The notes under the pieces: generated by a model
The model's input: the letters and a program-made list of their open reading frames with translations, nothing else
Databases searched by the model: none
Told to the model about the DNA's origin: nothing
Assembly: GCA_944325055.1 (NCBI GenBank)
Contig: CALUYP010000036.1
Location: 1 to 51,051 of the forward strand
Length of the DNA: 51,051 bases
Direction: 5' to 3'
Origin: an uncultured Elusimicrobiales bacterium
GTDB lineage: Bacteria > Elusimicrobiota > Elusimicrobia > Elusimicrobiales > Elusimicrobiaceae
Position numbers and translations under genes: made by a program
Shown here: piece after piece, positions 29,725 through 33,689 of the stretch
Position numbering within the stretch: position 1 is the stretch's first letter
Layout of the letters: every line of letters starts with the position of its first letter

Positions 29725-30612
29725 ATGAAACATGGTATGAATTTTCAGGATATGATATCCGCATTAAACACTTACTGGACTAAACAAGGCTGCATCCTTG
29801 TTCAGCCCTATGACGTTGAAAAAGGAGCCGGCACCTACAATCCGGAAACTTTTTTCGGCTCGCTGACTCATAAACCGGTCAAAAGAGCTTACGTGGAACC
29901 CTGCCGCAGACCCGCTGACGGACGTTACGGCGAAAATCCAAACCGCTTAGGTAAATATTATCAATACCAAGTCATCATGAAACCTTCGCCAGCCAATATT
30001 CAAGAAATTTATTTAAATTCTTTAAAGACTATCGGATTGGATCCCAAACAACATGACGTGCGCTGGATTGAGGATGATTGGCAGTCCCCCACGTTGGGCG
30101 CCTCCGGCGTCGGCTGGGAAATATGGCTGGACGGCATGGAAATCACCCAATTTACCTATTTCCAAAATATGGCTGGTTATGCGCTCAATCCGATTACCGT
30201 GGAAATTACTTACGGGCTGGAACGTATTGCCATGTATTGCCAAAAAGTGGATAATGTTTTCGATGTGAGATGGAATGATGAAGTGACCTATCGGGACGTC
30301 CATCATGAAGGTGAAAGACAGTTTTCCCATTATTACTTTGAAGAAACGAATGTGGATCATCTGCGCCGTTATATTCAGGAATGTGAAGAAGAGTGTTTTG
30401 CTTTGTGTAAAAAAGGGCTTTATCTTCCGGCTTATGATGACGCGATGAAACTGTCGCATTACTTTAACATGCTCGAAGCGCGCGGAGCGATTTCCGTTTC
30501 CGACCGCACCAACAACATTACCCGCATTCGCAACTTAGCCAAAGCCTGTGCAAAAGCCTATGTAGAAAGCGTAGAAAAAGATTCATCTTGTAAAGAGGAG
30601 GCCGCCCAATGA
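29725..30612 (+). CDS. glyQ: Glycyl-tRNA synthetase alpha subunit
   Basis: Catalytic subunit of the bacterial alpha2beta2 glycyl-tRNA synthetase, class II. Conserved segments include [44 protein letters not shown] and [18 protein letters not shown]. The ATG at 29725 gives 295 aa; an alternative in-frame ATG at 29737 (MNFQDM) is equally conserved, and neither has a ribosome binding site. I prefer 29725 because of its distance from the -10. It overlaps glyS by 4 nt. Confidence 0.95.
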
Positions 30613-32687
30613 ACGCATTGCTGGAAATTGGGGTGGAACATTTACCCGCCCGCTTTATGGCTCCGGCCTTAAAGCAACTGGAAACCTTAACCGCACAACT
30701 ATTGGATGAGAAAAGAATCGCCTATAAATCGGTAGAGTCCTTTGGCACTTACCGCAGGTTGGTTGTATTTATAGAAGAAATTGCGGACAAGTCGGCAGAT
30801 ATACAAAAAGAAGTGAAAGGCCCGCCCGCTAAACTTTTAAAAGACGCCAACGGTAATTTCACCCCCCAAAGCGCGGGTTTTGCGCAGAAAAACGGTATTG
30901 CGCCTGAAAAGCTGACGGTAGTAGAAACGGACAAAGGCCCATTTATCTACGCTGTCATAAAAACAAAAGGCGAAAAAACGGCAAAATTATTGCCGGAAAT
31001 TTTTACGCGTATCGTAACGGGGCTGGAGTTTGCAAAAAATATGATTTGGGAAGAGTCCGGCCTGCGCTACGGACGCCCGATACGGTCTCTGATCGGACTT
31101 TACGGAAACAAAGTGATTAAATTCTCTGTAGCCGGAGTCCACTCAAACCGCAATACCTATCCGCTTTCTTCGTTCGGACGAAAACCGATTAAAGTGGAAA
31201 AAGCCGATAAATTTTACTATGCCGACCTGCTCCGCTCCCAACCGCAGCCTATTTTAGTGCTGCCGCAAGAACGCCGGGACGCGCTTATAAAGACGGTTTC
31301 CAATGAAGCAAAAGTACGCGGCTACCAGGCCGATTTAGATCCTGCCTTAATCGAGGAGACCGTTTGGTTTACCGAACATCCCGTGGCGGTAAGCGGGGAT
31401 TTTGAAATCAAATTTTTAACTCTGCCAAAAGATTTGGTAACCACGGTGTTAAAAAAACAAATCAAGATGTTTCCCGTCTTAAACGACAAGGGCGGTTTGG
31501 AACCGTATTTTATTGCCGTGCGGGACGGAATATCCGTTAACCAAAATGAAGTGCGCGACGGATTTAAAAAAGTAATGTCGGCACGCCTGTCGGATGCGGT
31601 GTTCTTTTTTGAAAATGATAAAAAAGAAGGATTGGAAAAATTTAAAGAAAAGCTTAAAAATGTACAATTTTTAGAAGGTCTCGGTTCGATGTACGACAAG
31701 TCCGAACGGACCCGCCGGCTGGCAGACTGGCTGTGTGAAAAATTGGGCAAGAATGAGTTGGCAAAAACGGTAGATTATGCGGGATCGTATGCATATGCGG
31801 ATTTAGCCAGCCATGTGGTTTATGAATTTCCGGAATTGCAAGGATACATGGGCGGGCGGTATGCCGCTTTAGAAGGACGTACGGATGCGGCCCAAGCGAT
31901 GGAGGAATTTTACTTCCCGCTTACTTCTTCCTCCGAGTTGCCAAATACGGAAGCGGGCTGTCTTGTTTCTTTAGCCGGGAAGATAGATACGCTGACGGGT
32001 AATTTTTTAATTGGACAAATCCCCACGGGAAGTGAAGATCCTTTTGCCTTACGCCGCCAAGCATTTGGAGCGGTGCGTATTCTGTTGGAAAAAGGATTGA
32101 ACGTCTCCTTAAAAGAACTGGTTGAAAAATCGGCCTCTTTGTATCCGGCTGGGACGCCTGATAAAGGATTAAAAGAGTTACCCGGCTTTTTATTTCAGCG
32201 GGTAGCTTCCATATTAGAACAACGCGGCCACCAAGCCAACAGCCTAAACGCGGTATCCAATTGGTATGAAATACCGCTTACGCAGGCAGAAGCGTTAGTC
32301 AGCGCATTGGAAACGGTTAAACAGGGCGAAAATTTCGCCTTGCTGATGGAACCGGCAAAGCGCGTATGTAATATTTTAAAGAAATCTGAAGACATAACGG
32401 AAGAGATCGACGAGAAGAAACTGCTCCTGCCGGCTGAAAAAGCATTGTATGAAAAAATTTATGAAGTAGATTGCGCCTTGGGTTGTTCTGTAAGCAAAGC
32501 TTGCAGTAAAGAGGAATACCTTCAAATACTCAAGACATACAGCGCTTTCAGAGAACCGTTGGAGCAATTTTTCAAAGACGTCATGGTAAACGATAAAGAT
32601 GCTTCCATACGGAAAAATCGTTTGGCCTTGCTGGCGCGCGTGCGTCGTTATTTAACGCAAACGCTGGCGGATATTACTAAGCTGTAA
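30609..32687 (+). CDS. glyS: Glycyl-tRNA synthetase beta subunit
   Basis: tRNA-binding subunit of the alpha2beta2 enzyme, 692 aa (E. coli 689). It starts with the typical [19 protein letters not shown] central HD-like domain and the segment [19 protein letters not shown] are present, and the C-terminal anticodon-binding domain contains [25 protein letters not shown] precedes the ATG, which overlaps the glyQ stop in an ATGA junction. A strong terminator follows. Confidence 0.95.
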
Positions 32688-32772: not shown

Positions 32773-32800
32773 TTGAAAAATCATTAAAAATTCCTATACT
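32773..32800 (+). promoter_or_regulatory. Promoter of orphan noncoding RNA
   Basis: TTGAAA (32773-32778), 16 bp, TATACT (32795-32800). Predicted start near 32807. It is separated from glyS by a strong terminator. Confidence 0.65.
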
Positions 32801-32806
32801 ATCCAT

Positions 32807-33297
32807 ACAGGAAGTAAGTCCGTAGGCCTGCCGGGTGTTGCTTGGTAAGCGGACAAAAGCGGTAACGAGAGGTAGTGTTGCTGTTGTTGTAAAGGCGCCA
32901 GTCTGAAAGAAGTTGGCATACGTGCTTGTAAAAAGCGAAGATGGTTGGGTTACATAACTGTCTGTAGGCTGGTAAGGCGTAGAGCAAGATGTATTCGGAC
33001 GCGGATGGAGCAGGGCAATAGATGTTGTTTCATCTGGAAGTTAAGGCGCTGACGTGAAGTTGTAAAGCGGTGTAGTGCGGCAAGAAGGATGAGGTAGTCG
33101 TACAAAGTCGTTGGCAGCGTTGTTTCCGGAGGTTGATGTAATTGGTTCGGCCGGAAGGAAACGTAAAAAGCAGCATAAAACCCGGTGATGTGGGTTGTGT
33201 AAGGCCTATCTCGGAAGAAGGAAAAAAGCAGTGAGGAGTAAAAATGGAGACGTCAAGATGAACCCCTCGGTTTAGGTAAACCGGGGGGTTCTACTTT
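32807..33297 (+). ncRNA. Uncharacterised structured noncoding RNA (about 490 nt)
   Basis: No plausible coding frame crosses this region, yet it has a good promoter and a strong terminator. It is purine-rich, with far more G than C, unlike flanking genes. Its ends can pair: TCCG-TAGGCCT (32819-32829) with AGGCCTA-tct-CGGA (33202-33215), and nested inside CCGGGT (32831-32836) with ACCCGG (33180-33185). The latter competes with a local hairpin AACCC/GGGTT (33179-33196). Local hairpins include GCTT-GGT-AAGC (32840-32850), GCTT...AAGC (32924-32936), AGATG/CATCT (33020-33035) and TTCCGG/CCGGAA (33124-33156). The tetranucleotide GTAA occurs 11 times before the terminator. I cannot match it to RNase P, tmRNA, SRP or 6S RNA. 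Function unknown. Confidence 0.65.
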
Positions 33298-33298
33298 T
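33260..33298 (+). terminator. Terminator of the noncoding RNA
   Basis: GAACCCC (33260-33266) / GGGGTTC (33285-33291) with inner CGGTTT/AAACCG, followed by TACTTTTT. Confidence 0.88.
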
Positions 33299-33335
33299 TA
33301 AAAGGAAATAATCCAAAACGGCAAAAGAACGGTAT

Positions 33336-33689
33336 TTATTCCAGCACACTGGGCGGCGGAAGCGGCTGCATTTCAGTGGGTGCGCTTTGGGAGGAAGAAA
33401 CGCCGGAATCATTCTCAACTTCTTCATCTTGTAATGGAGTTAAGATCATTTCTTCATAAGATTCGTCCGGCAACGGCGCCATATCGATTTCTTGTGGAAT
33501 TGGTGTTTCTTCCGAAAACTGCGGCTGTGTTTCTTCCGTACCGGATGACGAGGAACCTTTAGAGGAAGAAGAGATGGAAGATCCGTCTGATGAATAGGCA
33601 TTGCTAGGGTTCCACCAAGCGGGCGGATTGCCTGCACAAGCCGTTAAAAAGACAGCAAAGGCCAATATCGAAAACAAGTTCTTTTTCAT
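33336..33689 (-). CDS. Small Ser-rich lipoprotein
   Basis: Predicted lipoprotein of 117 aa, function unknown. The signal peptide MKKNLFSILAFAVF ends in the lipobox LTAC, so Cys18 should be lipidated. The mature part starts AGNPPAWWNPSN, then a Ser-rich stretch (about 33-50), and the rest is Pro/Glu-rich, acidic and probably disordered. No known domain. It is a single gene. There is no ribosome binding site, and TGG-TATAAT ends 6 nt before the ATG, predicting a leaderless mRNA. It is convergent with the noncoding RNA. Confidence 0.7.
   Translation of the reverse strand: MKKNLFSILAFAVFLTACAGNPPAWWNPSNAYSSDGSSISSSSKGSSSSGTEETQPQFSEETPIPQEIDMAPLPDESYEEMILTPLQDEEVENDSGVSSSQSAPTEMQPLPPPSVLE

Follow-up and report, generated by a model that had tools for sequence, protein, structure and literature searches.

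Both large orphan RNAs and mini-ORF RNAs with a hairpin are already known: OLE, ROOL and GOLLD are large, intricately folded, free-standing RNAs without obvious protein product (PMC12286853), and CreT, from the CreTA toxin-antitoxin modules, is a small RNA whose mini-ORF of about six codons is immediately followed by a stable stem-loop (PMC8501985). This small toxin is repressed by CRISPR and carries tandem rare codons; what counts is that its mini-ORF is translated, and the H. hispanica version has a strong Shine-Dalgarno sequence (SD) (PMC8501985). The window analysed here, i.e. a stretch of 51,051 nt from an uncultured Elusimicrobiales bacterium, contains an RNA (hereafter family 1) that resembles OLE, ROOL and GOLLD in being large, intricately folded and free-standing, but differs from them in occurring in one lineage only, in its conserved 3' mini-ORF and in having no Rfam match to any of them. 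As in CreT, a short ORF (five codons) is followed by a hairpin, here that of the terminator; unlike CreT, family 1 has a folded domain of 350–500 nt and changing codons, and is near-universal in its genus. Dual-function small RNAs such as RNAIII, SgrS and SR1 carry ORFs that encode functional peptides of tens of residues. Like these, a family 1 transcript combines a folded RNA with an ORF (here translatable by sequence), but the ORF has only about five codons and its peptide changes from species to species. Finally, leader-peptide attenuators and riboswitches classically consist of a folded domain, an SD, a short ORF and a terminator, and the same order of elements is seen here, except that family 1 lacks a co-directional downstream gene.

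The first-pass annotation of this stretch had proposed a large, structured and purely non-coding RNA with its own promoter and terminator, belonging to no known RNA class and specific to its lineage, and had asked for its conservation in related genomes and its covariation to be checked. The features of the locus, in window positions, are the following.

32773–32800, plus strand: promoter TTGAAA-16-TATACT (-35 box at 32773–32778, -10 box at 32795–32800), read from the sequence
32807–33299, plus strand: whole RNA, present in 56 of 66 genus genomes; start inferred from the promoter, about ±3 nt
32821–33216, plus strand: folded domain with P1 as its closing helix, containing nested CCGGGU/ACCCGG and a number of hairpins, from RNAalifold and covariation
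33131–33152, plus strand: most conserved element, hairpin GGUUGAUGUAAUUGGUUCGGCC, consensus GGUUGAUGUAnnUGSUUCGGCC
33234–33238, plus strand: SD AGGAG, 5 nt 5' of the AUG
33244–33261, plus strand: mini-ORF AUG GAG ACG UCA AGA UGA (METSR), five codons, between P1 and the terminator
33260–33299, plus strand: intrinsic terminator, hairpin at 33260–33291, then TACTTTTT to 33299
30609–32687, plus strand: glyS, upstream neighbour (context only)
33336–33689, minus strand: convergent lipoprotein gene, downstream (context only), followed by a lipA-like gene

Several lines of evidence indicate that positions 32807–33299 almost certainly represent a structured RNA family. The minimum free energy of this region is -161.1 kcal/mol, compared with -135.0 ± 5.5 kcal/mol for 100 dinucleotide shuffles (z = -4.78, none of the 100 being as good), while the opposite strand yields a z of only -0.99. 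In an RNAalifold analysis of 13 close relatives, 145 pairs were predicted, with both-sided changes in 29. For the 113 pairs of the folded domain, 98.2 % of the cells pair and both-sided changes occur in 27 pairs, versus 9.9 ± 2.0 after shuffling and 4–8 when the partner strand is slid by 1–3 columns, although these counts come from related sequences and are therefore not independent events. The fold of the approximately 490 nt RNA is predicted to be multibranched, and its two ends pair as had been claimed, i.e. CGTAGGCCT near 32821 and AGGCCTATCTCGGA near 33202 were found and are also paired in the minimum-energy fold, with P1 formed by UAGGCC near 32823–32828 and GGCCUA near 33203–33208. P1 is nearly invariant among the 13 close relatives; other subgroups have a closing helix of another sequence (e.g. 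UUAGUC with GACUAA) at the same place just 5' of the SD, and the length of the RNA ranges from about 350 to 540 nt in the family. The positions of the core hairpin are mostly invariant or more than 90 % conserved among 32 sequences, and a relaxed pattern of this hairpin has one match per genome in 40 of the 66 genus genomes. The previously described excess of GTAA is also reproduced, with 12 occurrences in the 499 nt after the -10 box versus 3.1 in base shuffles.

The distribution was determined with a covariance model of the 3' part of the RNA, which matched 56 of the 66 species genomes of one genus of gut Elusimicrobiota, once each, with 46 to 131 bits. In a phylum-wide search of 341 genomes, none of the 275 genomes outside the genus was matched; conservation among relatives and lineage specificity thus both hold. 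The next matches, from 35 bits downwards, are largely background, but two further true members and members of two other RNA families (families 2 and 3, see below) are among them. The two further members are divergent copies with promoter and mini-ORF in two of the 10 sub-threshold genomes (L162 and L163); as the genus genomes are mostly metagenome-assembled and some are incomplete, the 10 sub-threshold genomes are no proof of absence. The named relatives are gut Elusimicrobia, i.e. UBA1436 and Elusimicrobiaceae from sheep, buffalo and roe deer.

Weak model matches were also seen in sister genera, and the four that were read lack both a promoter of this kind and a mini-ORF; they seem unrelated, being mostly gene ends followed by terminators. 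A mobile or phage origin was considered and rejected, as the core motif has no match in a viral contig collection. The core motif also matches a Colwellia contig, but within what looks like a coding sequence, so that chance is the probable explanation.

Both the promoter and the terminator that had been assigned to the RNA are present in the sequence, and a promoter of the TTGA...TATACT type precedes all 40 homologues of the first set and 17 of 18 others examined. The terminator hairpin consists of GAACCCCTCGGTTT-AGGT-AAACCGGGGGGTTC followed by TACTTTTT, and its 5' arm begins within the stop codon of the mini-ORF. glyS is the neighbour of the RNA in 16 of the 18 homologous loci that were looked at first, and the lipoprotein gene and the lipA-like gene are nearly as regular. 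Other members sit elsewhere in the genome, which indicates that the RNA is an independent gene. The RNA could also be a leader or attenuator, with a ribosome on the mini-ORF controlling terminator readthrough into a downstream gene, for which the order of folded domain, SD, short ORF and terminator would be the expected one. However, there is no downstream gene to control, since at least 29 of 36 family 1 loci have a convergent gene next to the RNA on this side, and the neighbouring genes vary among subgroups, which makes such a role very improbable.

An assignment to a known RNA class was not obtained, in agreement with the earlier description. Rfam 15 returned one tRNA only for the whole window at the gathering cut-off; for the RNA region at a relaxed threshold, the best sub-threshold match remained far below its own cut-off, and no family was matched by 20 diverse loci of families 1–3. 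Since the scope of Rfam includes RNase P RNA, tmRNA, SRP RNA, 6S RNA and the large ornate RNAs, the RNA locus lies below the gathering cut-offs of all of these. A divergent housekeeping RNA (RNase P, tmRNA or 6S) is the least probable of the readings considered here: RNase P RNA (200 bits) and tmRNA (101.5 bits) are located elsewhere in this genome, and the multibranched fold differs from the 6S rod. In its favour, the 6S model (RF00013) finds no match in this genome, but 9 of 14 control genomes are missed by it as well, and this absence therefore means little. The mini-ORF ending was also looked for on the RNase P RNA and the tmRNA of this genome, and none was seen.

While the structured nature of the RNA, its own promoter and terminator and its restriction to one lineage stand, the picture of a purely non-coding RNA does not, because it missed the conserved mini-ORF at the 3' end. 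The first-pass annotation had noted no credible reading frame; there is indeed no long one, yet a five-codon frame with its SD lies directly before the terminator and is present in all 58 homologues read (58 species-level genomes), with the stop codon at the base of the terminator hairpin. Its length is exactly five codons in 53 of the 58; the remaining five have 4, 6, 8, 8 and 9 codons, the one with six starts with two adjacent AUGs and would count as five if initiation took place at the second. All homologues have an SD of at least 4 nt and 56 of 58 one of at least 5 nt, compared with 46 % and 27 %, respectively, of 515 long ORFs of this genome. These counts establish, at the level of sequence, that a translatable mini-ORF is conserved in family 1 RNAs. 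Moreover, 714 terminator-like sites were scanned in about 1.3 Mb of this genome, which covers most of the assembly with small overlaps, and a hairpin with a five- or six-codon ORF next to it and a consensus promoter 390–470 nt upstream occurs at just two of them, this locus and that of family 2.

The 58 homologues comprise 40 distinct mini-ORF sequences and 37 distinct peptides, and use all three stop codons (TGA 43, TAA 9 and TAG 6). Valine, isoleucine, leucine, methionine, phenylalanine and tryptophan make up 7 % of the peptide residues versus 31 % in the proteome, although the mini-ORF is A-rich and may owe some of this polarity simply to being kept unpaired. The base T is rare at codon position 2 (12/170) compared with position 3 (43/170; Fisher p = 6e-6, with related sequences that are not independent). 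Since this bias is frame-specific, it is hard to explain without translation, and the mini-ORF is very probably under selection to be translated. The peptide itself could in principle be the product, e.g. a signal, and the peptides are indeed consistently short and polar; considering that they differ so widely among the 58 species and that polarity is the only feature they have in common, we regard this as most improbable. The variation of the peptide alongside constant start, SD, stop and length instead makes it reasonably probable that what selection maintains is not the peptide but the fact that a ribosome loads and is released at the 3' end.

The tail could also be read as untranslated, with AGGAG and the AUG region serving as seed or binding element of an orphan structured or base-pairing regulatory RNA and the mini-ORF being incidental. 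Purine-rich single-stranded tails with SD-like motifs are common as seeds in regulatory RNAs, and in family 3 the tail keeps its nucleotide sequence and may fold into a hairpin. In family 1, however, the ORF drifts freely between a fixed start and an in-frame stop, for which all three codons are in use, and a codon-position bias is not expected for a seed. Such a regulatory RNA is therefore unlikely, but of the alternatives to a translated tail it is the one we take most seriously.

Given the resemblance to CreT, the RNA might act as a minigene that sequesters tRNAs, initiation factors or ribosomes and whose exposure is governed by the large domain. The 3' end of CreT has the same anatomy, i.e. 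a six-codon mini-ORF with a stable stem-loop downstream (PMC8501985), and in the mini-ORF of this genome two of the four codons after the AUG (UCA and AGA) are rare. Yet codon identity varies between species, and family 1 has no tandem rare codon or conserved rare codons across its mini-ORFs. CRISPR is patchy in the genus: Cas1 occurs in just 13 of the 66 genomes and is absent from this one, so a CRISPR link as in CreT is missing for an RNA found in 56–58 genomes. Considering also that a strong promoter beside housekeeping genes and a near-universal presence are unlike a toxin, we consider a CreT-like minigene quite improbable.

The best explanation as a whole, in which our confidence is evenly balanced, would be a new free-standing RNA family that combines a folded domain with a tail loading a ribosome on a minimal ORF. 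The first module would be the multibranched domain, closed by the helix that joins the 5' end to a point just 5' of the SD; the second would be a single-stranded tail, in which an SD and an AUG are followed by some four codons and then a stop at the terminator hairpin, and on which a ribosome would be loaded and the mini-ORF presumably translated. This ORF would be so short that its ribosome reaches the terminator hairpin and that only one ribosome fits at a time, a second one being blocked until the first has left. An initiating ribosome covers roughly up to +15 to +18 from the AUG, and in predicted folds pairing in the 3' hairpin mostly begins at +12 or +17; such a ribosome would thus touch the hairpin and further steps would push into it, an effect that follows from geometry. 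Ribosome traffic may in this way open or shield the 3' end of the RNA and tie the stability or activity of the folded domain to the amount of translation initiation. That translation controls the fate of the RNA is a possibility we rate as rather doubtful.

In close relatives, UCCU after P1 (window 33208–33240) can pair with AGGA of the SD, and a weaker pairing exists in this genome. The pairing in the close relatives suggests that initiation at the mini-ORF may be regulated or weak, and access to the mini-ORF could be switchable.

The same ending is not restricted to family 1. Two other RNA families emerged from the weak matches of the family 1 covariance model, with the following representative loci.

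L203:1249-1670, G000:C77:12132-12553, minus strand: family 2 RNA, in this genome (G000), ending in MEESTK and a stop
L204:1391-1570, plus strand: family 3 RNA, also in L165/L172 and L205–L216

Family 2 RNAs are about 380–430 nt long, contain the motif AGAAAAUAAGAGUUCUUU and have the same order of promoter, fold, SD, mini-ORF and terminator. Both-sided changes occur in 57 of 100 pairs of their fold versus 19–32 when slid, and family 2 is without match in Rfam. Their mini-ORFs have mostly six and sometimes five codons, the endings in other genomes including MEESTR, MNKPVR, MNMSAN, MNQTK, MAETK and others, each closed by a stop codon, and their SD matches are weak (3–5 nt). Family 3 RNAs, present in 12 genomes, comprise about 150 nt before the terminator and have a highly conserved tail AUGAC...AUGAGCUAA, which would encode MTRMS and variants before the stop and the start codon of which may sit in a small hairpin GUCAU...AUGAC. 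As conservation here extends to the nucleotides and the frame is overlapped by a second short one, the case for coding is weaker, and family 3 probably shares the mini-ORF ending.

Based on these families, it is tempting to speculate that the ribosome-loading tail is a portable 3' module common to at least two, probably three, unrelated structured RNA families of the genus, i.e. that RNAs which are otherwise non-coding undergo translation in order to make contact with a ribosome, a proposal that we put forward tentatively and hold to be somewhat less probable than the two-part design of family 1 itself. If true, it would define an RNA class that is neither mRNA nor classical non-coding RNA. 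A literature search on non-coding RNA in Elusimicrobia returned nothing relevant, and the open-licence literature searched yielded no description of folded RNAs with a mini-ORF ending that is maintained throughout a genus and shared by several RNA families. Large bacterial RNAs of unknown function are mostly treated as untranslated, whereas here a five-codon ORF is kept in 58 species with a drifting peptide, and the ORF-length filters of non-coding RNA and small-protein surveys hide mini-ORF designs of this kind. The AUG of the mini-ORF offers a direct handle on why a structured RNA would need a ribosome.

Two minor observations concern individual subgroups and loci. One subgroup of family 1 (L037, L162, L163, L028, L038, L151 and L154) has cysteine-containing mini-ORFs, some of them longer than five codons, with peptides such as MHSCK, MYSCC, MSSCKIEQ, MGCCSGAV and MMVCSGCGC. 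The family 2 RNA lies a few nucleotides after a gene that, as read from the sequence, encodes a helix-turn-helix regulator.
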